Shown: positions 30,643-57,840, counted from the first letter of the stretch. The stretch is 64,000 nucleotides of DNA from a virus (IMGVR_UViG_3300031951_006582:1-64000), one strand, 5' to 3'. Notes: generated from the sequence alone by a model not told the origin. Translations and numbers: made by a program.

Positions 30643-30650
30643 TATAAATA
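30643..30650 (+). promoter_or_regulatory. Late promoter, exact T4 octamer
   Basis: TATAAATA before ATG 30668, preceded by a weak 6-bp hairpin (30622-30637). Confidence 0.7.
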
Positions 30651-36689: not shown

Positions 36690-38957
36690 TTGCAGTCTTC
36701 ACCTGAAATTGAAAATATTGTAGCACGTTCAATTGAATCTGCTAAGAAGTATCAACACGAATATGTTACTATTGAACATCTTCTTTTGGCTTTGGTTACC
36801 CATGCGCCTTTCAAGAAGTGTCTCAACGGGTTCAACGTAGATACTGAAATGATGACTCAAGAGATTGAACAGTATCTTACTAGTCTGCAATCAATCGTAT
36901 CCACTGATCCTAATATGCAGCCCAAGCGAACCAATGCGCTTGAGCGTGTGATGAATCGTTCTGTGACGCAGGTGTTGTTCACTGGTCGTAGGCAAGTATC
37001 TACTATTGATCTTTACATGAGCATCGTTAGTGAGAACAACAGCCACGCACATTATTTTCTTCTAAAGTATGGTGTATCTAAGGCTGAGTTTCTAAATCAT
37101 TGGCAGCGTCACTATAAGGGTGAAGACGGTATTTCTGCCATCACTGATACGCAAGCAGAAGAAATTCTTGAAGAATACACGATTAATCTTACTGCACTTG
37201 CTCGTCAGGAAAAGCTTGAGCCTGTGATTGGCCGCAGCAAGGAAATTGATGATATCGTTAATGTCCTCGCAAAGCGTTTCAAGAGCAACGTATTGATGGT
37301 CGGTGACCCCGGCGTTGGTAAAACTGCAATCGCAGAAGGTATTGCTAACGCTATTGTCAATAAGGAAGTCCCTGACTTCTTGCTTGACCATGAACTTTAT
37401 AGCCTTGAAGTTGGTTCGCTACTTGCTGGTTCACGCTATCGCGGCGACTTTGAAGAAAAGGTCAAGCAGGTTCTTGAAGCACTTAACGTAAAGAAGAAGT
37501 CTATTCTCTTTATTGACGAAGCCCACACTATGCAGGGCGCAGGTGGCTCTACGAGCGGTAGCGTTGACTTCTCTAACATGATTAAGCCCGCTATCACTAA
37601 GGGTACGCTGAAGGTCATCGCAAGCACGACTTGGGAAGAGTTCTACGAAAGCTTTGAGAAGGACCGTGCGTTGATGCGCCGCTTCTATCGTATCAGCATT
37701 GATGAGCCTAGCAAGGATTCTACTGTTCGCATTCTTAGCGGTCTTGCTTCTCGTTTGAATGACTTCCACGAAGTTAACATTAGTCAGGAAGCTGTTGATA
37801 CTGCTGTTGAATTGGCAGAACGCTATATCCATGATCGTAAGAATCCTGACAAGAGCATTGACTTGCTTGATGCAGCCTGTGCTAAGCAGCGTGTTCTTAT
37901 GAACAAGGATGCAATCATCACTAAGGAACTTATCTATGAACAGGTAGAAAAGTTCACAGGTGTCCCCGCTGATAAGTTGAGTGGTGATAATATGGATCGT
38001 ATTCAGAATCTTGAAATGAACGTAAAGAACAAGCTTTATGGTCAAGACGAAGTTGTTGATAAGGTTCTTGAGCGTGTCTATGTCAGCTTCGCAGGTATCG
38101 GAAACGATACGAAGCCGACAGCAAGCTTCTTGTTCTTGGGCCCAACTGGTACGGGTAAAACAGAATTGGCTAAGCTGCTGTCCAAGAATTTGGATATGCC
38201 GCTTCTCAAGTACGACATGTCGGAGTACGGTGAGAAGCACAGCGTAAGCAGCTTGATCGGTCCGCCCCCGGGCTACGTAGGTTTTGGTGACTCGCAGGTG
38301 CAGGGCGGTCGTCTAATTTCAGACTTGAGCAAGAACCCTCATTCAATCCTGCTGTTTGACGAAGTTGAAAAGGCTCACCCCGATATTTTCAACATCTTCT
38401 TGCAGATGTTGGATGAGGGAACTGTCACTGGTAGTAACGGTAAGCAGGTGTCTATGAAGAACACTCTTATCATTTTGACAAGTAACCTCGGCAGTGCTGA
38501 TAACGAACGCAACAACATTGGCTTCGGTGATCTTGAAAAGAGTGGCGAAGACGATAAGGCATTGAAGCAGTTCTTCAAGCCAGAGTTCCGCAATCGTCTT
38601 GATATGGTTTGCAAGTTCAACAAGCTTGACACGCTTTCAATCAAGAAGATTGTTGTCAAGTTCATTGAAGACTTGAAGAAGCCGCTTCTTGAAAAGCACA
38701 ACATTAATCTTAACCTAAGCGAATCGGTAGTTGAATATCTTGCTGAACAGGGCTACGATAGTAAGATGGGCGCTCGTCCTCTTGCACGTAAGATTGATGA
38801 GTTGGTTCGTGTTCCTCTTTCAAAGAAGATTTTGTTTGAGAGCATCAAGAATGCTAATGTAATGGCAGTGATGAAAGATGATGCGATAGAGTTTGAAATC
38901 ACTGCCAAGCAGAACGCAAGGATTGGTAGTGATGGCATCATTGAAATTGAAGGTTGA
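36690..38957 (+). CDS. clpA: ClpA-type double AAA+ unfoldase
   Basis: 755 residues (E. coli ClpA: 758), TTG start with AAAAGG site. Clp N-domain repeats (EYVTIEHLLLALVTHAPF), first AAA+ (GDPGVGKTAIAEGIANAI; SILFIDEAHTMQGAGGS), second AAA+ (GPTGTGKTELAKLLSKNL; LLFDEVEKAHPDIFNIFLQM) and the ClpA/B C-terminal domain. There is no ClpB middle domain. At residues 610-612, the place of the IGL loop of ClpA, it has IGF, the form used by ClpX to dock ClpP. It could thus hijack host ClpP or act as a pure unfoldase. It follows dnaJ in one early transcript. Confidence 0.88.
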   Translation: MQSSPEIENIVARSIESAKKYQHEYVTIEHLLLALVTHAPFKKCLNGFNVDTEMMTQEIEQYLTSLQSIVSTDPNMQPKRTNALERVMNRSVTQVLFTGRRQVSTIDLYMSIVSENNSHAHYFLLKYGVSKAEFLNHWQRHYKGEDGISAITDTQAEEILEEYTINLTALARQEKLEPVIGRSKEIDDIVNVLAKRFKSNVLMVGDPGVGKTAIAEGIANAIVNKEVPDFLLDHELYSLEVGSLLAGSRYRGDFEEKVKQVLEALNVKKKSILFIDEAHTMQGAGGSTSGSVDFSNMIKPAITKGTLKVIASTTWEEFYESFEKDRALMRRFYRISIDEPSKDSTVRILSGLASRLNDFHEVNISQEAVDTAVELAERYIHDRKNPDKSIDLLDAACAKQRVLMNKDAIITKELIYEQVEKFTGVPADKLSGDNMDRIQNLEMNVKNKLYGQDEVVDKVLERVYVSFAGIGNDTKPTASFLFLGPTGTGKTELAKLLSKNLDMPLLKYDMSEYGEKHSVSSLIGPPPGYVGFGDSQVQGGRLISDLSKNPHSILLFDEVEKAHPDIFNIFLQMLDEGTVTGSNGKQVSMKNTLIILTSNLGSADNERNNIGFGDLEKSGEDDKALKQFFKPEFRNRLDMVCKFNKLDTLSIKKIVVKFIEDLKKPLLEKHNINLNLSESVVEYLAEQGYDSKMGARPLARKIDELVRVPLSKKILFESIKNANVMAVMKDDAIEFEITAKQNARIGSDGIIEIEG

Positions 38958-46038: not shown

Positions 46039-47927
46039 TGTCCCCGAATGATATGCAGATGTTGATCAAATCATTACACCTGTTAGAACAAGAACCTGAA
46101 GTTCAGGAAAACTCGCCAGTGGTTGAAGACACTGCACAATCTGATAATAGAGATTATCTTCCAGCAATAGAAGAATTTTTATTCAATCTAGGTCCCGATG
46201 ACGTTGGTGTAGAGAAGTTTGGCCCATACACTGTACACTTTGAGGGATTCAGTGACTATTGCCAGCAAGACGCAAATGATCGTTGTTATTTGCCTAAAGA
46301 AGATCCTAGACACTTAGACAAATATGAAGACATATATGACGAGGTTCTACGAGACTTCATTAATCGTGAAGATGGCAAAATGCCAATTGATTCAGGATTG
46401 ACTGGCGACGAAGAATACCCTATCTATTACGCTATCTTTAAAGAAGAAGGCATTGTTGAAGCCAAAGAAAGTATTAAAGACCAAGTTGAAAAAGCCTATA
46501 TCCAAGATGGCGGAAACATTGATGACTATTTTGTAAGACACAGCAGAGTTGATAAGTTAGGATTTAGTCCAAAACAAATCTTTGCTCGTAGCCCTGATTT
46601 AGATCATCCTGCATATGATATTGATTATATTGGCAATAGTGTAGGTACTCCTGCACTTTGGTTCTATCCATTAAAATATTATTTACAATCTAAGGAATTA
46701 TTTGCTGAGAAATTGCCATATATATGGTTAGTAAAACTAAGACCAAATGCATGGCTACAACCTGTAGACAGGTTTACTAAAACAAAGAAAGAAGCCCCAC
46801 AAGGAAAAGAAAGAGTAGGCATACTTAAGAATACACTTACTCCAGCAGCAATCTTTTTCAAGCCTGCGTTTGATGTTGTAGATAAGTTCTATGACTATGG
46901 TGGTCAGCATAAGCGTCACGGCGAAGTCAAGGGTGCTCCAGTAGAAGAAGAAATCGCTTATCACGGTACAACAGATGATATAGCTGAGTTCTATCCACTC
47001 ACTCACTTTGGCACTGAGAAGGCTGCTAAAGATAGAATGACATTCAAGAAAATCAAAGATGGTAAAATCTATAAAGTAGATTTAGATATTAAGAATCCAT
47101 TAACTATTAAAGACTTTCCTGGCGTTCACTATGACAGATTATATGCTTTTGAATTGCGTGATAAGAAACTAATTAGTCAAAAAGAAATGGAAGCTATTAC
47201 TACTATTGAAGATAAGGCAGAATTACGAAAAGCATTATTAGCTAAATTAAAAGAATTAGGCTTTGATGGCTTTGTCTATAAGAATAGATACGAAGACAGA
47301 GGCAATCTTAGTTATGTAATAGTTGACCCTAGTCAAGTAAAAGTTCTCGGTGTTGAACCTGCTGCTGAAGAAGTCACTGAAGCAAGCCCAAATACACTTA
47401 AGGGTAGCTTTACTCCAGACTTAGTTGAGAGTAAGAAATGGTTAGCTAATATGTTGGCTAAGGGTCTTAAAGGCAAGAATGCTGGCACTATCTATGTATT
47501 AGGTAGCTGGTACGGCAATATGGGAATCTTCTTACACGAAGCAGATATCAAGTTTGACAAGTTAGTTTTGGTTGAGCCTAACGAAGAATGGTTGCGTCAA
47601 AGTAAAAAACTATTAGATACGTTTAATACTGAGGGCAAAATCGTATTTCTCAATCAAAAAGCAGAAGATGTTGTTTATGAAAAGCCAGGCGTAGTAATCA
47701 ACACAAGCTGCAACGAAACAGGCCCTATATTCTTGAATAAAGTTCCCGATAATATGCTATGTTTATTACAAGCAAGAAACAACAACGAGAATACATTATT
47801 CCCAACAGAAGATGAGGAAGACTTTGTAGACTATTTCCCACTTTCAAAGGTTTATTACACTGGCGATAAATATCTAGAAGACCCTGAAATTAATTATGTT
47901 CGTTATATGAAGATTGGTAGAAAATGA
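46038..47927 (+). CDS. ADP-ribosyltransferase-like plus methyltransferase-like fusion
   Basis: 629 residues. An N-terminal LIKSLHLLE-Q site resembles a packaging leader. Residues about 50-300 are unassigned. About 305-430: EIAYHGTTDDIAEFYPLTHF-GTEKAA, IYKVDLDIKNPLTIKDF, LGFDGFVYKNRY and SYVIVDPSQVKVLG follow the H-Y-[EQ] ART domains of polyvalent phage proteins. About 455-629: GTIYVLGSWYGNMGIFLHEA and LVLVEPNEEWLRQS give a class I SAM-binding fold. T4 packages an ART (Alt) that modifies host RNA polymerase; this would be a functional analogue with an added methyltransferase. Activity is inferred, not shown. Confidence 0.65.
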   Translation: MSPNDMQMLIKSLHLLEQEPEVQENSPVVEDTAQSDNRDYLPAIEEFLFNLGPDDVGVEKFGPYTVHFEGFSDYCQQDANDRCYLPKEDPRHLDKYEDIYDEVLRDFINREDGKMPIDSGLTGDEEYPIYYAIFKEEGIVEAKESIKDQVEKAYIQDGGNIDDYFVRHSRVDKLGFSPKQIFARSPDLDHPAYDIDYIGNSVGTPALWFYPLKYYLQSKELFAEKLPYIWLVKLRPNAWLQPVDRFTKTKKEAPQGKERVGILKNTLTPAAIFFKPAFDVVDKFYDYGGQHKRHGEVKGAPVEEEIAYHGTTDDIAEFYPLTHFGTEKAAKDRMTFKKIKDGKIYKVDLDIKNPLTIKDFPGVHYDRLYAFELRDKKLISQKEMEAITTIEDKAELRKALLAKLKELGFDGFVYKNRYEDRGNLSYVIVDPSQVKVLGVEPAAEEVTEASPNTLKGSFTPDLVESKKWLANMLAKGLKGKNAGTIYVLGSWYGNMGIFLHEADIKFDKLVLVEPNEEWLRQSKKLLDTFNTEGKIVFLNQKAEDVVYEKPGVVINTSCNETGPIFLNKVPDNMLCLLQARNNNENTLFPTEDEEDFVDYFPLSKVYYTGDKYLEDPEINYVRYMKIGRK

Positions 47928-50533
47928 GAGCAAAACAATTCGTACCTATTGTAGAAGCTCAGCAAGAGCTTTTTGAAGTAAATATGAGTCCCGGCAACTT
48001 GAAGAAGCTTGCTAGCGGGATTGATGCCTTAGTAGGTATTGAATTTGAAATGATGGTTCCCGACGTTGGTTCTGTAGATGACGAGGATAGAGAACCAGAA
48101 GAGGATATGGATTACGATGAAGAAGCATATGATATTGAAGATATCGCTCGCTTCTTTAATGACGGTGGCTATAATGATCGCAGTACAATCAGAGACTTAG
48201 AAGAAGAACTAAGAGAAAAATTCTATGAATGGATAAGTGAACAAATAGACGAAGAATGGAATAATGAAGGTAGACAATACTTTGCACAGTGGGTCAAGGA
48301 CAATATAGATCCTGATACTATTGCCGATCACGTAGACAAAGAAGAAGATTTATTTGGTAATAGAAATCCTGACGGATCAGACTGGGATCAGTTCATTGAA
48401 GATGAATGGGAAAAGAGCTTTGATAGCGGTAGTTACGAAAAGGCATACGATGAGTTCCGCGAAGAAAGACAAGATAGCGGCGACTTTGATGAAAGAGACT
48501 TTCTAAGAGGAATCGGCATTCGTTATATGTCCGATGTTAATGATCATGTGAGAGAGTATGTTGCCTGGCCGCACTATACCTATTCTGACGGTGACAGTGA
48601 AATGAACCTTGAGAGTTTAGCAGATGAATTCTCAGATGCAATTGGTCGCAAAGTTCACTACAGTACAGGTTATCACGGCGGACCAAGAACAAATGACGCA
48701 TATACTATTGAACCTGATAGCAGCTTGAGCGGATCAGGTGACGATGCTGGACTTGAGTTCATTAGTCCTCCATTGCCTATTGATGAAGCACTTGAAGATG
48801 TTAAAAAGATCAAAGAATGGGCTGATGATAAGGGCGCATATACTAACAGAACAACTGGTCTGCATATGAACGTTAGCGTTCCTGGATTTAATCAAGAAAA
48901 TCTAGACTTCGTTAAGCTGACATTGTTGCTTGGTGACAAGTATCTATTAGATAGATTTGGTCGTAGTGCAAATACTTACTGCAAGAGTGCTTTAGATATT
49001 ATTGAAGAAGCACCCAATGTACAGGATAAAGAACTTTTATTCAAGAGATTAAAAGACAATCTTGAAACTATAGCAAGTAAAGTCATTCACTCGGGTAGAG
49101 TAGGTAAGTTCACAAGTATCAACCCTAAAGACAATCGTGTTGAATTCAGAGGCCCGGGCGGTGATTGGCTTGGGCAAAACTTTGACAAGATTGAAGATAC
49201 ACTTTATCGTTGCGTAGTAGCACTTGATGCTGCGGTTGATCCTGACAAGTATCGTAAGGAATACTTGAAGAAGCTTACTAAGATGTTTGATCCTGCTAAG
49301 GGTTCATTAGAAGATGTGTTCGTGCAGTATGCAGCGGGTACTATCACTCGTCAAGAATTGAAGGAAAAGCTCAAGGCTACACAATCGCAAAGAAAGAAAG
49401 AAAAGCTTTCTAAAGAAGGCGTGGTTGAATTAGAATTCTATGAAGCACAGGACGGAGATTACATCATTGAATATGATAATCCAACTGGTGATAATCGCAG
49501 AATGTTCCTAAAGAAAACTGAACAAGTAAGTAATGATGATCAAGCATTAAAAGCTGCAATGAATATTGAGCCAAGCTGGTTCAAGCCAGATGACATTGAA
49601 AACATCGTTGTTACTGAGTATACAGGTAGAAAAGTATATAATGTGTTTGATAAGGAAGGTAATGTTGTTGGTACCTACAATGCAGTGACACCTTTACAAG
49701 CAATTGACATTACACTTAGCTACGATAATAGGCTACCTAAACAAGGATTGACTGCTAAGTTAGAAAGTGAGTCGCAGCCAGAACCACTTAGAATGGCTCC
49801 GGGTGAAACAGAGTTTGTTGTAGTGAATAATACGTTGGGTCAAAGAGTAAGCCTAGGTGCAAGAGATAGCGCAACTGCATTAAGCCGTGCATTGCGTAAC
49901 AACCCAAGCTGGGATTCATATGAGCATCTGATTAGAGTTCTCTCAGCAGAACCTCAAACCCAAGAGGAACCACAATATACCGGTTACCGTGTAGCTGGTT
50001 CAAATTCTGAAGAAATTATTGCTGCTAGATCACCTGGCGAAGCACAGCGTATTGCTATGCTACTATATCCTAACTTAGGTGATAACTTAAGTGTCTCTGC
50101 AACGACGATGAGTTCTGGCCTTGCCGCATCACGATACCAACGACATATGGAAGAGATAGCAAGAATGAATGACCGCTCAGCGGGAAGTTCAGAACCGAGA
50201 GAATTTTATGTTAGCAACAACAGATTTGGCGGTACAATTAGGGTTGAAGCCCCTGATGAGGCAGAAGCACTACACGCTGCTACTAGAGCCCGTCCTGAAT
50301 GGTCAATACGAGATTTGACAGCAACCGAAGTAGGCGGAAGATCAAATCAATCTAATAATGGATTGACAGCGGGACAGCCCGGCGAAGGTGAGCTTTATCA
50401 AGTTACAGATGTAGGCGACACCGGGGGCGTAGTCATTCGTGCAACTAGTCCAGAACATGCTATTGAACGAGCTAGACAAGCACATCGCATAGACCCCTCA
50501 AGAGAATTAGAAGCAAGGCTATATAACGGTTGA
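47924..50533 (+). CDS. Amidoligase (COOH-NH2 ligase) with capsid-targeting-like leader
   Basis: 869 residues. Leader MRAKQFVPIVE-A with an I-V-E site. Residues 38-43 GIEFEM, then a long acidic insertion, DAYTIEPDSSLSGSG, AGLEFISPPLPIDEALEDVK and NRTTGLHMNVSVPGFNQENL: the G-x-E-x-E, D-x-S-L, G-x-E-[IVF]-x-SPPL and TGLH motifs of the glutamine-synthetase-fold amidoligase family. These join a carboxylate and an amine, modifying peptides or proteins. The C-terminal 300 residues hold three similar beta-alpha modules (e.g. TEFVVVNNTLGQRVSLGARD, REFYVSNNRFGGTIRVEAPD). Overlaps the ART gene by 4 bases. Confidence 0.75.
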   Translation: MRAKQFVPIVEAQQELFEVNMSPGNLKKLASGIDALVGIEFEMMVPDVGSVDDEDREPEEDMDYDEEAYDIEDIARFFNDGGYNDRSTIRDLEEELREKFYEWISEQIDEEWNNEGRQYFAQWVKDNIDPDTIADHVDKEEDLFGNRNPDGSDWDQFIEDEWEKSFDSGSYEKAYDEFREERQDSGDFDERDFLRGIGIRYMSDVNDHVREYVAWPHYTYSDGDSEMNLESLADEFSDAIGRKVHYSTGYHGGPRTNDAYTIEPDSSLSGSGDDAGLEFISPPLPIDEALEDVKKIKEWADDKGAYTNRTTGLHMNVSVPGFNQENLDFVKLTLLLGDKYLLDRFGRSANTYCKSALDIIEEAPNVQDKELLFKRLKDNLETIASKVIHSGRVGKFTSINPKDNRVEFRGPGGDWLGQNFDKIEDTLYRCVVALDAAVDPDKYRKEYLKKLTKMFDPAKGSLEDVFVQYAAGTITRQELKEKLKATQSQRKKEKLSKEGVVELEFYEAQDGDYIIEYDNPTGDNRRMFLKKTEQVSNDDQALKAAMNIEPSWFKPDDIENIVVTEYTGRKVYNVFDKEGNVVGTYNAVTPLQAIDITLSYDNRLPKQGLTAKLESESQPEPLRMAPGETEFVVVNNTLGQRVSLGARDSATALSRALRNNPSWDSYEHLIRVLSAEPQTQEEPQYTGYRVAGSNSEEIIAARSPGEAQRIAMLLYPNLGDNLSVSATTMSSGLAASRYQRHMEEIARMNDRSAGSSEPREFYVSNNRFGGTIRVEAPDEAEALHAATRARPEWSIRDLTATEVGGRSNQSNNGLTAGQPGEGELYQVTDVGDTGGVVIRATSPEHAIERARQAHRIDPSRELEARLYNG

Positions 50534-51631: not shown

Positions 51632-51639
51632 GCTAAATA
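51632..51639 (+). promoter_or_regulatory. Late promoter variant, probable promoter of the curli-type operon
   Basis: GCTAAATA followed by an A/T-only stretch and TAAGGAG before GTG 51670. No other promoter was found up to 57226, and all genes in between touch or overlap. Confidence 0.5.
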
Positions 51640-51669
51640 TTATTATAAAAATAATAATAAGGAGCTTTT

Positions 51670-51951
51670 GTGGGGGAATTTTTTAAACTCGTAGCCGATG
51701 TGGGCTTTCCTATAGCTGCTGCATTAGCTGCAGGCTATTTCGTTTTCCTAACATTGAAATTTATTCTTGCAGGTGTTACTGGTAGTATCAGTGGCATGAA
51801 GGGTATTATCACGGCACTAGACAATCGTGTTAAGACAATGAATCACGATGTTATACGTATTGATACTGTTGTTAGTAACGCTTTAGGTCTTAGACCAGAC
51901 ATTGATCGTATCTCAAGAGCAGACGGCAAAGATGATGCGAGAAAAGACTAA
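51670..51951 (+). CDS. Small membrane protein (YvrJ-like N-terminus), copy 1
   Basis: 93 residues, GTG start with a TAAGGAG site. VADVGFPIAAALAAGYFVFL then TLKFILAG is a TM helix opening with the GFPI motif of YvrJ-like phage proteins; the tail is a charged helix (ITALDNRVKTMNHDVIRIDT). It is the first gene behind the late octamer GCTAAATA (51632-51639) and may head the curli operon. It is a paralogue of the next gene. Confidence 0.6.
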   Translation: MGEFFKLVADVGFPIAAALAAGYFVFLTLKFILAGVTGSISGMKGIITALDNRVKTMNHDVIRIDTVVSNALGLRPDIDRISRADGKDDARKD

Positions 51952-52253
51952 TGGAAGATATTGCTACCTTAATCAGTGAATACGGTTTCCCTATCATCGC
52001 CGCAGGCGGCATGGGATACTTTGTATACTATGTTTGGCAGTGGGCAACTGAAGAAGTTGATCCGGTATTAGGTGAAGCTAACGTGACATTGATTGGGTTG
52101 ATTGATCGTATACGTATGCTTGATAATGACTTAATCCGCTTGAAGCAAAAGGTAGATACTGTTTTGCACTTGCGCGGTAAAACGATTGAATATGAAAGAG
52201 TGCAAGCAGAAGAAGAAATTAACAAAATCACAAAAGAAAAAGATGTAAACTAA
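51951..52253 (+). CDS. Small membrane protein (YvrJ-like N-terminus), copy 2
   Basis: 100 residues. ISEYGFPIIAAGGMGYFVYY then VWQWA is the TM; the tail is a coiled coil (LIGLIDRIRMLDNDLIRLKQ). Same plan as the preceding gene, with which it shares a stop-start overlap (TAATG), so the pair is a tandem duplication. It ends 11 bases before csgF. A link to secretion or lysis is possible but unproven. Confidence 0.6.
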   Translation: MEDIATLISEYGFPIIAAGGMGYFVYYVWQWATEEVDPVLGEANVTLIGLIDRIRMLDNDLIRLKQKVDTVLHLRGKTIEYERVQAEEEINKITKEKDVN

Positions 52254-52264
52254 GGGGAAAACAA

Positions 52265-52708
52265 ATGTTGAAAAGAACAATCATACTGTCACTACTCTTA
52301 GCAAGCACACCTGCACATGCTACTGAAATTGTATTTCAATTTAAAAATCCATCGTTCTCTGGAAACAATGCCGGAGCGCAATGGTTAACGATTGAAAATC
52401 AAGAGTTCAACCGCAAAAAAGACATTCAAGATAAAATTGAAGCGGACTTAAAAGCAAAGGCCCTTGAAGAAAAGAATTCTATCCTCAATCGCTTTATGAA
52501 CAATTTACAATCTCGTATATATTCTCAGTTAGCACAGCAGTTGACTAACAATCTGTTTGGTGCAATGGGAGGACAATCCGGCGCATTCACGCTTGAAGGT
52601 AATCAAATCAAGTATGAGAAGACAGACACCGAAATTCGTCTTGTAATCACTGATGATGCTGGTAATGTTACAGAAATCATCATTCCAACTAGTGGATTTA
52701 AATGGTAA
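52265..52708 (+). CDS. csgF: CsgF-like curli assembly factor
   Basis: 147 residues. Signal peptide MLKRTIILSLLLASTPAHA, then TEIVFQFKNPSFSGNNAGAQ. This equals the conserved mature N-terminus of CsgF (T-x-x-FQFRNPNFGGN), the segment that inserts into the CsgG pore. A helical middle (KNSILNRFMNNLQSRIYSQL) and a beta C-terminus (TDTEIRLVITDDAGNVTEII) follow as in CsgF. CsgF sits at the outer-membrane exit and couples secretion to fibre nucleation. AGGGGA site; the last bases overlap csgG. Confidence 0.88.
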   Translation: MLKRTIILSLLLASTPAHATEIVFQFKNPSFSGNNAGAQWLTIENQEFNRKKDIQDKIEADLKAKALEEKNSILNRFMNNLQSRIYSQLAQQLTNNLFGAMGGQSGAFTLEGNQIKYEKTDTEIRLVITDDAGNVTEIIIPTSGFKW

Positions 52709-53496
52709 TGAATTGGAAAATTTTAATATTACCCTTCTTATTGGGCGGATGCATGTCAAGTGGAGTTGGCGTCCTAAGTATGCAGGATACTCCGGCTGTT
52801 GTAAACACGCAGGTTAAAGAGTTGCAAAGCTTACCGCCGCCCGAGAGACAAGCTGTTGTTGCAGTATATGATTTTCCAGACTTGACCGGTCAGAGAAGGG
52901 ATAGAGACGGCCTTGCAAGTATATCAACTGCTGTTACACAAGGTGGTACTCCATTGCTGATTTCTGCATTGAAAGAGGCAGGTGGAGGTACTTGGTTTAG
53001 GGTAGTTGAGCGCAACAGAGTTGATGACCTTGCAAAAGAGCGTCAAATTGTTAGACAGACTCGTGAAGAATATTTGGGTGAGGGCGCAAACAAGCTTGAA
53101 CCAATGCTATTTGCAGGACTTATAATTCAAGGTGGCATCATTGGGTATGACACTAATATACAAACAGGTGGCGCAGGCGCAAGATATTTAGGCATCGGCG
53201 GCACAACTATGTACAGAAAAGATCAAGTTGTGGTAGCGTTAAGAGCAGTCAACACTAACACAGGAGAAGTGATTCTCAACGTACAAGTTTCAAAAACTGT
53301 ATTGTCTGTAGGTAGAGACTTGTCACTCTTTAAGTTTGTAGATGTTGGCACAAAGTTAGTCGAAGCCGAAGCTGGTATGACTGAGAATGAAGCAAACACA
53401 ATGGCAGTCAAGATGGCTATCGAAGAAGCAGTTTTACAATTAATTAAACAAGGAATAGAGAAGGGATACTTTAGATACGGGGGAACGGGAGAATGA
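52702..53496 (+). CDS. csgG: CsgG-like outer-membrane curli secretion pore
   Basis: 264 residues. Lipoprotein signal with lipobox LLGGC (Cys17), then VVAVYDFPDLTGQ, ISTAVTQGGTPLLISALKEA, RVVERNRVDDLAKERQIVRQ, LIIQGGIIGYDTNIQTGGAG-ARYLGIGG, YRKDQVVVALRAVNTNTGEV and VSKTVLSVG. It follows E. coli CsgG end to end at similar length. CsgG forms a nonameric lipoprotein channel that exports curli subunits. By eye alignment, the constriction residues Tyr51, Asn55 and Phe56 of E. coli correspond to Asp69, Ser73 and Ile74 here. A second ATG (52708) is an equally good start. Confidence 0.92.
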   Translation: MVMNWKILILPFLLGGCMSSGVGVLSMQDTPAVVNTQVKELQSLPPPERQAVVAVYDFPDLTGQRRDRDGLASISTAVTQGGTPLLISALKEAGGGTWFRVVERNRVDDLAKERQIVRQTREEYLGEGANKLEPMLFAGLIIQGGIIGYDTNIQTGGAGARYLGIGGTTMYRKDQVVVALRAVNTNTGEVILNVQVSKTVLSVGRDLSLFKFVDVGTKLVEAEAGMTENEANTMAVKMAIEEAVLQLIKQGIEKGYFRYGGTGE

Positions 53497-54188
53497 AGAA
53501 TAAATTAATGCTTGCAGCAATGGCGATGCTTGCAAGTTCGGTAGCAATGGCTCAGTCAACTACCAACTCAATTTTTATTGAGCAAGTCGGTGATAGTAGT
53601 AATATTAGTATTACTCAGAAAGGTCAGAGTAACAAAGTTGGAACTGAACAGAATCGTGTAGTTCTTGAGGGAAATAGTCAAACAATAGCAGTAACCCAAG
53701 AAGGCAACAATAACTCTATTCAAGGTTCTATTGTTCAGGCTGATAACGTTGATATGGATGTTACGGTGACTGGAGACAATAATACCTTGACATATGATCA
53801 AGGTGATGCAGCCAGCGTAGCCGGTTCTACTCAAACTTTAGCAGTTACTGGTGATTCAAACACCTTAACGTTCAATCAAGGTACTGCTGCGTCGGCTACG
53901 AACGCAACACAAACTGTTACAATCACTGGTGATACTAACACACTTACATCTACTATAAACGCAGATGATGTTGTTAACACTAAGACAATCGCAGGTGACG
54001 GTAATACTATTACTACAGTACAGGATGGTACTGCTGGAAAGAATATTGAAATGCTTCTTACCGGTAACACTAATACTGTTACAGTAAATCAAAAGAGTAC
54101 AACTAATGTTGACACGCTTAAGATCAATAGCACGAGCAACGGCAGCACTATTACTATTAATCAGTGTAACGCCGGCGGCCCATGCTAA
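53493..54188 (+). CDS. Curlin-repeat (CsgA/CsgB-like) secreted protein
   Basis: 231 residues. Signal peptide MKNKLMLAAMAMLASSVAMA-Q. The mature part begins with a canonical curlin unit (SIFIEQVGDSSNISITQKGQ, i.e. Q-x-G-x3-N-x4-Q) and continues with about eight looser units of the form V-T-G-D-x-N-T-L-T-x-x-Q (e.g. VTGDNNTLTYDQGD, VTGDSNTLTFNQGT). It ends CNAGGPC, a possible disulfide. N, T and Q dominate and there is no Trp: an amyloid or beta-solenoid composition. It would be the CsgG substrate. ATG overlaps the csgG stop. Confidence 0.82.
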   Translation: MKNKLMLAAMAMLASSVAMAQSTTNSIFIEQVGDSSNISITQKGQSNKVGTEQNRVVLEGNSQTIAVTQEGNNNSIQGSIVQADNVDMDVTVTGDNNTLTYDQGDAASVAGSTQTLAVTGDSNTLTFNQGTAASATNATQTVTITGDTNTLTSTINADDVVNTKTIAGDGNTITTVQDGTAGKNIEMLLTGNTNTVTVNQKSTTNVDTLKINSTSNGSTITINQCNAGGPC

Positions 54189-55194
54189 TATAGGTAAAGT
54201 TACGCAAAACAGAGGCGTAAGTGAGGTCGTGAAGAATTCGGCAAGAGTTCCTACACGACCTCAGTTACCTATTGCCAAAATGGATAGGGTGCAGACTGGC
54301 AACGGCAGAGTTGAAATTACATTCGTAGATGATTCTACTGTGCGAGTCACCGAACATTCCAGACTTGTGATTGATGATTTCGTTTATAGCGGTAGACCAT
54401 CTACTTCAAGAATGGCTCTTAGATTTGCATCTGGAACTGCAAGATTTGCAACCGGCAAGTCTGGCAAGATGAATAAAAACAATATCAACCTTAGAACACC
54501 AACTGCGACTATCGCAGTGAGAGGTACAGACTTTGCAGCAACAGTAGATGACTTTGGCAAAAGCTTGATTGTCTTACTTCCAGAAGAAGATGGGTCAGTA
54601 GGCGAAATCACGGTAGCCAATGCTGCTGGATTTGTCGTTCTTAATAAAGCATTTCAGGCTACTATAGTATCGACGATGGATAGCAGACCTTCTCGCCCAG
54701 TTATATTGAATCTCACGCTTGATATGATTGATAATATGCTAATCATATCTCCAGCAGAAGAAGTTCGCACAGCCGAAGAGATTGCTGATGCCAGAACTAA
54801 TCTATTAGATTTGACCGAACTTGATGTTGATTTTCTTGCAAGAGACGATTTAAAAGAAGACCAGTTAGCAAGTTCTGAACTTGATATTAATGCAATCAAT
54901 TCAGATTTCTTAGGAGAAGATTTTCTTGATGATCTGAGTACAGAAGAATGTATGACTAGAGACGGTGTCAAACTTTGCGGAACTACATTTGGTCTTAATA
55001 ACACTACTCAGATTACAACTATTATGTCAGGCGATTATCTACGCCTCGTCAGAACACTAAGTACTACAGTTGATATTGTTGTGAAGAAGGATTCAAACAA
55101 AACCCTATTCATAGACAGTAATGGAAAATCATTCCTAATTGAAGTCAACGAACCAGCCGGAGGAACTATCATCAATGTTAAGCAAAGCGAGTAA
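54106..55194 (+). CDS. FecR-domain exported protein
   Basis: 362 residues. Its signal peptide (MLTRLRSIARATAALLLLIS ending in APAAHA-type, here TPAAHA-NIG) is coded in another frame within the last 83 bases of the curlin gene. Mature residues about 28-170 form a FecR domain: GVSEVVKNSARVP, DRVQTGNGRVEITFVDDSTV, RVTEHSRLVIDDFVY, SGTARFATGKSGKMNKNNIN, LRTPTATIAVRGTDFAATVD. FecR domains sense or bind ligands in the periplasm. The C-terminal half is acidic with one C-x-x-x-C-type pair. The gene overlaps the cyclase start by 20 bases. Confidence 0.8.
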   Translation: MLTRLRSIARATAALLLLISVTPAAHANIGKVTQNRGVSEVVKNSARVPTRPQLPIAKMDRVQTGNGRVEITFVDDSTVRVTEHSRLVIDDFVYSGRPSTSRMALRFASGTARFATGKSGKMNKNNINLRTPTATIAVRGTDFAATVDDFGKSLIVLLPEEDGSVGEITVANAAGFVVLNKAFQATIVSTMDSRPSRPVILNLTLDMIDNMLIISPAEEVRTAEEIADARTNLLDLTELDVDFLARDDLKEDQLASSELDINAINSDFLGEDFLDDLSTEECMTRDGVKLCGTTFGLNNTTQITTIMSGDYLRLVRTLSTTVDIVVKKDSNKTLFIDSNGKSFLIEVNEPAGGTIINVKQSE

Positions 55195-57226
55195 AATTTT
55201 ATTGTCACCCTGGTTAGCAGTAGCTACACTATTGTTATTGCTATCAGTGAAGTTGATGAATCCGTTCCTAGTTGATAGTATGAAACTAAAGTACTATGAC
55301 TATCTGATGCTTGGGGAACCAATCAAATCAGAACAGATTGTAGTTGCAAATATAGGGGAGAAAGCAATTGAAAAATATGGTCAATATCCGTTTCCAAGAG
55401 AGGTCCATGCTAAAATTATTAGCGACCTTTATAGCGGAGGGGCTGGCATTGTTGGTAGCACTATACTTATGCCTGAGCCTGATCGTTTGGGGACTGACGG
55501 AGTTCTTGCGAATACACTAAAAGAATATCCGGTTGTATTAAGTCAAACACTTACTGATGATTGCGTTAAGGATAATCGTCTCCCTCGCCGCACAGGCGTT
55601 GCTGTAATTGGTGACGGACAACCCACTGATTTTCTTCCGAACTATCCATGTGTGCTTGATAACATTCCAGCACTTCAAGAGTCTGCCGCAGGCGTCGGGA
55701 TAACGACTTCTCTTCCAGAGACGGACGGGGTAACCCGTCGAGTGCCTTTATTAGGGATTTCAAATGGCGAATACTATCCTGCGTTTTCTTTAGAACTTTT
55801 GAGAGTTGCTGCGGGAGATCCTTCATATCAAGCGAAGATAAATCAGACGGGTGTTGAAGCATTGCGTGTTCCTCAGTTTGGTACGATTAATACAGATGAA
55901 TATGGGCGTGTCTTTATCAATCCGAACTACCAGTTTTCTTCTGTAGAAATCGGCGAGACAATTCCTGATCTGACTGGTAAGATAGTGATATTAGGCGTAA
56001 CTGCTGACGGAGTTGCGAATCCTGTAGCGACTCCATCAGGTGCGCAATATCCCCACACCCTTCAGGCGAGTATGCTTGAGACTCTAATAGCTGGGGAGAC
56101 TGTATCAATTCCGAATTGGGTAGGTCTTGTTGATCTTCTTGCATTCGTCGTCCTTTCACTATTGATAATTTTGTTATCACGGGTACGATATTCAATCGTT
56201 TGGATCGGAATATTAATAGCCGGTTATATTTATGCTCCGATGTATCTATTTACCCATAACAAGATACTATTTGATATTTCTTTCAACGTTTTGGCTGCAT
56301 TAGTAATCTATCTGCACATCTACACTGTTAAGTTTATCAGTGAGTATCTACAGAAGCAACAGATTAAGAAGCAGTTTGGTACATATCTAAGTCCAGACTT
56401 AGTTGCACAACTACAGCGTCAACCAGAACTATTGAAGCTTGGTGGTACAGAACAAGAATTGTCAATCATGTTTACTGATGTTCGCGGATTCACAACTATC
56501 TCTGAACACTATGGTAAAGATGTTCAAGGCTTGACAAGCATCATGAATCGTTATATGACTGCTATGACCAAAGCAATTCTTGAGAACAAAGGTACGCTTG
56601 ATAAGTATATAGGTGATGCTCAAATGGCGTTTTGGAATGCTCCGGTAAACAACGAACAGCACGCCAAAGACGCAGTTAGAACAGCATTCACAATGCTCAA
56701 TTCATTAGAGGAATTCAATAATGAGATTAAAAAAGAAGGCATCCCAGCTTTTGGAATGGGCCTCGGTATTAATACTGATACTGTGGTTGTCGGTAATATG
56801 GGTAGCACTCAGCGTTTCGACTATACTTGTCTTGGTGACGGGGTCAATCTTGCAGCTAGGCTCGAAGGTCAATCAAAGCCTTACGGCGTTAAGATTGTCA
56901 TTGGACCAAAGACTGCCTATTATGTTAAGGATGAATACCAAATCGTAGAACTTGATTTGATTGCAGTTAAGGGTAAGACTGAGCCTGCTAGAATATTTAC
57001 TGTGTTCCCCTTCCACGACATATTGGCCGAGACACAGCATATGAAATTCCTAGAACTATATCGTCAAGGTCATTGGGAAGCTGCTGAAAAGTATGCAAGT
57101 GATCTAAAGAAGTGCTGGAGAGGTGAAATGGACCAGTATTACGATATGATGATTGAAAGAATTCAAGAATTCAGAAACAATCCTCCCGCTAAGTGGGATG
57201 GGGTGTACAGGGCAACTTCAAAGTAA
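55175..57226 (+). CDS. CHASE2-domain class III adenylate cyclase
   Basis: 683 residues from ATG 55175 (MLSKASKILLSPWLAVATLL). One N-terminal TM, a CHASE2 extracytoplasmic sensor (about 30-310; LKYYDYLMLGEPIKSEQIVV, IVILGVTADGVANPVATPSG), three TMs (about 318-390) and a C-terminal cyclase. Cyclase motifs: IMFTDVRGFTTISEHYG (first metal Asp), DKYIGDAQMAFWNAP (Lys and second Asp), GNMGSTQRFDYTCLGDGVNL-AARLE (transition-state Asn/Arg). Lys and Thr positions favour ATP over GTP. It would make cAMP inside the infected cell in response to an envelope signal. Last gene of the curli-type operon. Confidence 0.88.
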   Translation: MLSKASKILLSPWLAVATLLLLLSVKLMNPFLVDSMKLKYYDYLMLGEPIKSEQIVVANIGEKAIEKYGQYPFPREVHAKIISDLYSGGAGIVGSTILMPEPDRLGTDGVLANTLKEYPVVLSQTLTDDCVKDNRLPRRTGVAVIGDGQPTDFLPNYPCVLDNIPALQESAAGVGITTSLPETDGVTRRVPLLGISNGEYYPAFSLELLRVAAGDPSYQAKINQTGVEALRVPQFGTINTDEYGRVFINPNYQFSSVEIGETIPDLTGKIVILGVTADGVANPVATPSGAQYPHTLQASMLETLIAGETVSIPNWVGLVDLLAFVVLSLLIILLSRVRYSIVWIGILIAGYIYAPMYLFTHNKILFDISFNVLAALVIYLHIYTVKFISEYLQKQQIKKQFGTYLSPDLVAQLQRQPELLKLGGTEQELSIMFTDVRGFTTISEHYGKDVQGLTSIMNRYMTAMTKAILENKGTLDKYIGDAQMAFWNAPVNNEQHAKDAVRTAFTMLNSLEEFNNEIKKEGIPAFGMGLGINTDTVVVGNMGSTQRFDYTCLGDGVNLAARLEGQSKPYGVKIVIGPKTAYYVKDEYQIVELDLIAVKGKTEPARIFTVFPFHDILAETQHMKFLELYRQGHWEAAEKYASDLKKCWRGEMDQYYDMMIERIQEFRNNPPAKWDGVYRATSK

Positions 57227-57240
57227 GTTACCCAATATTT

Positions 57241-57269
57241 TTGACACAGACACATATATGTTGTAAATA
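57241..57269 (+). promoter_or_regulatory. Sigma70-type promoter of the OM barrel gene
   Basis: TTGACA (57241-57246), 17-base spacer, TAAATA (57264-57269), then a leader with AAAGGA. GTTACCC lies just upstream (57227-57233). Confidence 0.7.
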
Positions 57270-57321: not shown

Positions 57322-57840
57322 ATGAAGAAGTTAATCGCACTCGCAGCACTCGCAACCGCTGCTTTTACTACCCCTGCAATGGCATCTGATTTTGCCGGTC
57401 CTCGTGTTGAGGTAACCGCTGGAGCTGATGACGTTACTGGTGGTGTTGACACGACTGACATTGCTTATGGCGCAGCCCTTGGTTATGACCTTCAGTTCGG
57501 TAAGGTAGTTGTCGGTGCAGAAGCAACCGCTGCTAACGTCTTTGAGAAGGCTGATCTTGGCGCAGCCGCTCGTCTTGGTTATACCTTGAACAAGAATGTT
57601 CTTGCTTATACCCGCGTCGGTTACGCCAATCTTGAGCGTCCTCAGACTTGCACACCTCGCATTGGGAATACTCCAGCAGTTTGCCGTAATACTGCAAACT
57701 TGGAAGGTCTCACCGTTGGTGGTGGTCTTGAAGTGAAGCTTGTTGGCTCAACATTCGTTAAGGCTGAGTATCGCTACTCTGACTTTGACGGCGCTGTTGG
57801 TCGTCACGGCGGACTCGTAGGCTTCGGTCTTCGTTTCTAA
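57322..57840 (+). CDS. Outer-membrane beta-barrel protein, sphingomonad porin-family-like
   Basis: 172 residues. Signal peptide MKKLIALAALATAAFTTPAM-A, then FAGPRVEVTAGADDV, AYGAALGYDLQFGKVVVGAE, LGAAARLGYTLNKNVLAYTR, LTVGGGLEVKLVGSTFVKAE, YRYSDFDGAVGRHGGLVGFG and a terminal L-R-F. The alternating strands and C-terminal aromatic residue fit an 8-stranded OmpA/Opa-type barrel; wording is close to sphingomonad porin-family proteins. Two Cys lie in one loop. It has its own sigma70 promoter (57241-57269), so it is expressed apart from the curli operon. Possible roles: receptor masking or envelope change (inference). Confidence 0.8.
   Translation: MKKLIALAALATAAFTTPAMASDFAGPRVEVTAGADDVTGGVDTTDIAYGAALGYDLQFGKVVVGAEATAANVFEKADLGAAARLGYTLNKNVLAYTRVGYANLERPQTCTPRIGNTPAVCRNTANLEGLTVGGGLEVKLVGSTFVKAEYRYSDFDGAVGRHGGLVGFGLRF

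Follow-up and report, generated by a model that had tools for sequence, protein, structure and literature searches.

A curli-type secretion module with FecR and adenylate cyclase genes in a viral contig of probable jumbo phage origin

The 64,000 nucleotides of viral DNA considered here (IMGVR_UViG_3300031951_006582:1-64000, hereafter the window, whose source record is a 72,298-base virus contig) carry on the + strand, at 51670-57226, seven intact open reading frames (ORFs) in one tight run that together make up a curli-type secretion module. Two small GFPI-type proteins come first, GFPI-A (51670..51951, 93 amino acids, phrog_18771, found with the module) and its paralogue GFPI-B (51951..52253, 100 amino acids, with the motif LIALIDRIRMLDNDLIRL; hhalign 2.4e-19 between the two). 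They are followed by CsgF (52265..52708), with a signal peptide and the CsgG-binding motif FQFKNPSFSG, the predicted outer-membrane lipoprotein pore CsgG (52702..53496), a candidate curlin-repeat substrate with a signal peptide (53493..54188; repeat motifs, shuffles and a model), a secreted FecR-domain protein (54106..55194; Pfam FecR, a model and a tail motif) and a CHASE2 class III adenylate cyclase (55139..57226, an ATG at 55175 being a likely alternative start; Pfam, catalytic residues and solved relatives). An earlier reading made from the sequence alone (the sequence-only reading) had listed seven touching genes of these kinds, and the intact ORFs in one run confirm it; of the family profile searches it proposed, those for CsgF (PF10614, 3.9e-25), CsgG (PF03783, 8.6e-50), FecR (8.8e-13), CHASE2 (6.3e-36) and Guanylate_cyc (9.5e-20) came out above the Pfam cut-offs and that for Curlin_rpt below. 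The genes do more than touch: GFPI-A and GFPI-B overlap by 1 nt, CsgF and CsgG by 7 nt, CsgG and curlin by 4 nt, and curlin and FecR by 83 nt, out of frame (54106-54188). The 3'-terminal 83 nt of curlin thereby encode, in another frame, the start of FecR with its signal peptide, an overlap that recurs in close relatives (for example the loci L012 and L023) and is shorter in others.

Upstream of the first gene, at 51634..51639 (+), lies TAAATA, a late-promoter-like box recognized by motif enrichment, and a second such box (57264..57269, +) precedes the outer-membrane barrel gene described below. TAAATA stands 5' of 10 of the 19 window genes preceded by intergenic sequence, those for tail sheath and head-tail adaptor among them, against 2.2 expected, and 5' of the first module gene in 49 of 64 relatives against 9.75 expected. 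The exact T4 late box TATAAATA does not occur at the operon, its single occurrence in the window being at 30643, and an exact T4 late promoter there was rejected, the TAAATA variant fitting instead. The 'late-type promoter' seen at first reading thus stands as a motif; the sequence pattern is consistent with late transcription of the module.

Judged by its genes, the window most likely derives from a T4-related jumbo phage. The closest counterparts of its DNA polymerase are in Sinorhizobium phage Phosso (469 kb) and Agrobacterium phage Atu_ph07 (490 kb), and elsewhere the contig encodes a tail sheath, a head-tail adaptor and a clamp loader, among further phage genes. The polymerase is present in all six of the large viral contigs tested (258-360 kb; 52-81% identical) and the tail sheath in five of them, these contigs having been reached via their module genes, so that all are module carriers.

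The sequence-only reading implied that the whole set, with substrate, FecR and cyclase, was novel. That is not borne out, since the full set is described for pelagiphages in PMC9599517, with earlier reports in PMC7029224 and PMC9004378. Known carriers of this pelagiphage type VIII secretion system/curli module are HTVC008M, uncultivated pelagimyophages and HTVC023P-type podophages (PMC9599517, PMC7029224), to which the OM43 phage Melnitz (PMC9004378) is to be added. They have the same order as the window (two small proteins, CsgF, CsgG, curlin, FecR, in some a second curlin, and cyclase) and likewise no CsgE. The window differs from the pelagiphages in its jumbo lineage, in having one curlin and not two, and in its separate tree branch; identity to HTVC008M is 45% for CsgG and 41% for the cyclase. 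It is a new, jumbo-lineage member of a known phage curli kind, and what is new here is the constancy of the module with its obligatory GFPI pair, the reading of FecR, the five-gene counterpart in Caulobacterales and the conserved CsgF peptide.

How strict is the package? The samples of viral contigs took relatives of the proteins in the window itself as their starting point and comprise the matches listed, so they give no estimate of prevalence. Forty-six non-redundant viral contigs have csgG flanked by at least 1.8 kb upstream and at least 6.5 kb downstream, and every one of the 46 contains all seven components. The neighbourhood survey of phage csgG that had been proposed, with an eye to FecR and CHASE2 cyclase, accordingly finds both in every flanked contig. 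Forty-two have one operon-like order, FecR and cyclase being separated by a second curlin in 24 of them and not in 18, and in the remaining four the GFPI pair is relocated downstream on the other strand; a second curlin occurs in 25 of the 46 overall. When the search began from GFPI-A alone another module gene was nearby in 70 of 80 loci, and at the other ten the sequence either runs no further than 1.5 kb from GFPI on one side or starts at GFPI. In 47 of the 70 GFPI-A is mainly opposite in strand to the rest of the module and in 23 mainly co-directional. That linkage is kept across inversion argues for shared function and, with seven components in 46 of 46 contigs under several gene orders, the linkage has probably been selected. 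In many phages (L258-L331) the GFPI pair converges with the other module genes, whose cyclase end is towards GFPI.

The pore proteins are the most familiar part. The CsgG profile aligns over most of its length with solved E. coli CsgG (5.8e-72), and the lipobox-type Cys17 is invariant in 33 sequences, in keeping with the full-length, lipobox-bearing CsgG first described. HfaB, the Caulobacter holdfast anchor, is also a CsgG relative; the window protein matches its family (NF037935) at 1.5e-8, far more weakly than it matches curli CsgG (1.9e-48), and CsgF is present in the window. By profile, CsgF aligns with the CsgF chains of solved E. coli CsgG-CsgF complexes, and within the FQF-x-NP-x-F motif that had been picked out, and just beyond it, F26, P29, F31 and G33 are invariant in 30 sequences. 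The motif stretch corresponds to the E. coli CsgF segment MTFQFRNPNFGG, the portion that sits inside the CsgG barrel. Because the CsgG-binding stretch is conserved, sequence does not favour the suggestion (PMC9004378) that phage CsgF may have ceased pairing with CsgG. With E. coli csgDEFG-csgBAC the window has in common the CsgG pore, the CsgF N-terminal peptide and secreted curlin repeats; it is without CsgE and a separate CsgB, with CsgD and CsgC likewise not seen, and has FecR, the CHASE2 cyclase and the GFPI pair in addition. The sequence-only reading would have been undermined by homologues in related phages without an intact CsgG pore or signal peptides; they retain CsgG and signal peptides.

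The curlin repeat is real despite its sub-cut-off Pfam score, since its motif count far exceeds that of shuffles and other members of the family do match Curlin_rpt. Strict GxxNxhxhxQ motifs number three, where shuffled sequences average 0.016 and not one shuffle in 5000 has three or more, and Curlin_rpt is matched at E<=0.01 by 15 of 25 aligned members (best 1.6e-7), so that the repeats claimed at the outset hold. NCBIfam CsgA matches the window protein at 1e-4, below that family's cut-off, and the structure model has paired strands with a mean predicted local distance difference test score (pLDDT) of 82.

FecR here has a signal peptide, a FecR beta domain at about 29-200, a low-confidence linker (229-280) and a C-terminal beta region (281-361) ending GGTIINVKQSE, the mean pLDDT of its model being 77. 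The FecR domain is matched in 30 of 30 sequences, with no further consistent family match in the set. Neither an N-terminal cytoplasmic anti-sigma part nor a transmembrane helix was found, the signal peptide standing directly before the FecR domain. An hxhxQ strand near the C-terminus is present in all 62 distinct phage FecR tails as against 3.4% of other proteins, and the same pattern is found in phage curlins (compare GNTNTVTVNQ of the window curlin with GQENAITINQ of HTVC008M FecR). The surface-anchoring domain of the adhesin MpAFP (PDB 5ix9) matches profile positions 27-98 of FecR at E 0.0036 and, by Foldseek, the FecR model with a template modelling score (target) of 0.73 and a root mean square deviation of 1.0 over 61 columns; what is shared is the anchor-like domain only and the E-values (0.0036, 0.011) are modest. 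Leptospiral surface adhesins are among the NCBIfam matches, below cut-off. Because there is a signal peptide, no anti-sigma part, an adhesin-anchor-like domain and the hxhxQ tail, the evidence favours FecR as anchor or nucleator rather than iron regulator, and it may stand in for a separate CsgB-type nucleator.

The cyclase is predicted from its residues to be active and to prefer adenine. All 89 sequences have the metal-binding Asp pair and the adenine-type Lys, in agreement with the intact motifs first noted in this class III enzyme with CHASE2; the adenine Asp is present in 85 of 89, the Asn in 85 and the Arg in 86, the rest being mostly gaps, and the window protein has solved structural relatives. 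In one relative (L029, 3515-5581) the cyclase is divided between two ORFs.

Least familiar is the GFPI pair, each member of which has, judged from sequence, an apolar stretch at the N-terminus along with a long, charged helix; GFPI-A has a hydrophobic N-terminal segment, a charged helix and a near-invariant C-terminus, RADGKxDARxD. Among 50,697 deposited phage records GFPI was found only in six HTVC008M and Melnitz records with the module. Identity to HTVC008M and Melnitz is 54-59% and 49-57% for GFPI versus 45% and 44% for CsgG, so GFPI is among the best-conserved parts of the module. PMC9599517 has the module preceded by one or two 'histidine kinases', and in that position lie the 93-100-amino-acid GFPI proteins, an equation that rests on position. 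With this length, no fully conserved His column and no kinase family or domain match, a histidine kinase identity was rejected for GFPI. Matches to holin and YvrJ are too weak for either identity to be assigned: GFPI-B matches holin phrog_4898 at 8.9e-4 over 21 residues, and YvrJ is matched by 4 of 36 GFPI sequences (best 0.044; 11.6 bits against a cut-off of 29.5). The pair is an obligatory, phage-specific part of the module that is absent from the cellular counterparts examined.

The closest cellular CsgG loci are in two Caulobacteraceae contigs from metagenome-assembled genomes (MAGs; L148, L149) and a 705-kb Hyphomonas contig (TMED17, L150), all with CsgF-CsgG-curlin(-curlin)-FecR-CHASE2 cyclase amid chromosomal metabolic genes. 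These five genes are in the same order as in phages, with CsgG 57-66% identical and cyclase and FecR homologous, and in the whole genomes of the three no GFPI match was found. The Caulobacteraceae FecR tails, GGGTIINVTQD or GGGTVINVTQD, are like those of phages; Hyphomonas FecR is without the Q tail. A strong, long FecR match was obtained in only two of 398 Caulobacterales genomes, and neither FecR nor cyclase was matched within 9 kb on either side of the other curli loci examined, from alphaproteobacteria and Bacteroidota. In the four-gene tree phage and Caulobacterales modules form one clade (Shimodaira-Hasegawa-like approximate likelihood ratio test, 100) apart from ordinary curli, and both it and the CsgG tree place the cells inside a phage-rich clade. 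A CsgG topology that groups all the phages nevertheless survives the approximately unbiased test (p-AU 0.36), so transfer between phages and Caulobacterales may have run either way.

The case from sequence for a functional module is strong, and what that function may be can be outlined. The module would be self-contained and probably transcribed late. CsgG, by homology, would form an outer-membrane pore into which CsgF would plug through its conserved N-terminal peptide; the curlin protein would be exported through it to give amyloid at the infected cell's surface; and secreted FecR would retain or nucleate the fibre, its FecR domain serving as anchor and its C-terminal strand being similar to half a curlin repeat. 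The periplasmic CHASE2 domain could read the state of the envelope, with cyclic AMP (cAMP) made inside, and the GFPI pair, speculatively, could tune the cyclase or membrane permeability. The most likely benefit would be an infected-cell surface altered against competing phages, or neighbours kept near at lysis. We lean, with some confidence, towards this picture of a jumbo phage whose CsgG-CsgF pore, made late, exports an anchored amyloid and whose module also signals through cAMP. Of what the sequence-only reading proposed, we retain an intact CsgG and CsgF that are carried by a phage and have signal peptides, the curlin substrate, the active-looking cyclase and the late-type box, but not the notion of an unreported set.

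Several observations weigh against it. CsgE, as had been remarked, is absent (0 of 19 phage records, with the E. coli control detected), and with one curlin the window copy has no separate CsgB-like nucleator. Curlin_rpt matches the window protein at 0.0086, below the Pfam cut-off, and Foldseek of the curlin model against the PDB gave no significant match. The best PDB fold matches of the FecR model are anti-sigma/PupR signalling domains. In hhalign profile comparison the similarity of its C-terminal region to curlins falls short of significance (probability ~1%), the best local alignment lying on the terminal strand of a curlin repeat. Homology there is not established and, because the whole-region comparison is not significant, kinship of the FecR strand with a curlin half-repeat is offered as a hypothesis. 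Lastly, Melnitz, which has the module, did not make cells clump in culture under the conditions of that study (PMC9004378).

Best surviving among the alternatives, though we think it improbable, is a CsgG-CsgF pore that acts as an uptake or leak channel, for nutrients or lysis timing, with curlin a secondary passenger, as was proposed for pelagimyophages and Melnitz (PMC7029224, PMC9004378). The want of a CsgE gate and the weak holin match of GFPI-B (8.9e-4) would suit such a channel. Yet that resemblance spans just 21 residues, the curlin gene is directly 3' of csgG in all 46 complete modules, and CsgF, dispensable for pore assembly, is always retained with its binding motif. Less likely again is a module mainly for signalling, in which cyclase and FecR, along with GFPI, alter host cAMP and curli are the sensed input. 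The cyclase is indeed intact in the 89 sequences examined and accompanies FecR in phages and in the three Caulobacterales loci, but the curli genes are kept just as constantly. We would give rather poor odds to fibres on virions or lysis debris that capture hosts ('sibling capture' in some variants; PMC7029224, PMC9599517) rather than on the living infected cell: the late-type box would fit, whereas signal peptides together with a pore in the outer membrane point to export while the envelope is still intact, and Melnitz, as said, caused no clumping. That the module is an assembly chimera or host contamination, which the sequence-only reading had named as its undoing, can be dismissed as wholly implausible, since the same phage genes enclose identical or closely similar modules in other, independent contigs, many of these genes at 75-95%, a synteny that speaks against chimera, large jumbo relatives carry the module, cellular versions are without GFPI, and nothing was found in its favour, some bacterial MAGs holding such contigs, yet with the phage-only GFPI.

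Those bacterial-MAG contigs (L151, L152, L175, L220; Flavobacteriales, Sphingobacteriales, Pelagibacter, Rhodobacteraceae) carry the GFPI pair and are probably phage contigs mis-binned into bacterial genomes. A deposited 'Salmonella phage' record of 1,499 bp that encodes CsgG (OR851715.1) is probably bacterial contamination. An inconstant part of the locus, 3' of the module at 57322..57840 (+), is an outer-membrane beta-barrel protein (OMP_b-brl, PF13505, 6.3e-14), a homologue of which is present in 31 relatives' loci and in 11 of the 46 non-redundant modules; adjoining the module end with its own TAAATA box, it is possibly an accessory surface protein. The same contig encodes an ATP-dependent protease (window 36690-38957, phrog_4871) and an amidoligase-like protein (47924-50533, phrog_2443).

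To return to anchored amyloid export, a wider conjecture, to which we attach a rather low probability, is that the secreted FecR, its C-terminal strand being curlin-like, takes the place of CsgB/CsgE as nucleator and anchor, that the phage-only GFPI pair is indispensable in regulating cyclase or pore, and that Caulobacterales gained the module from phages and lost the pair. If the export reading is true, amyloid secretion forced on infected cells by a virus would make an unusual kind of host manipulation. Previously the set was known from ocean phages of hard-to-grow hosts; the strictness of the package, its extension to jumbo phages, the Caulobacterales counterpart and two unstudied obligatory proteins provide concrete targets, and possibly more tractable hosts, for finding out the role of phage curli.

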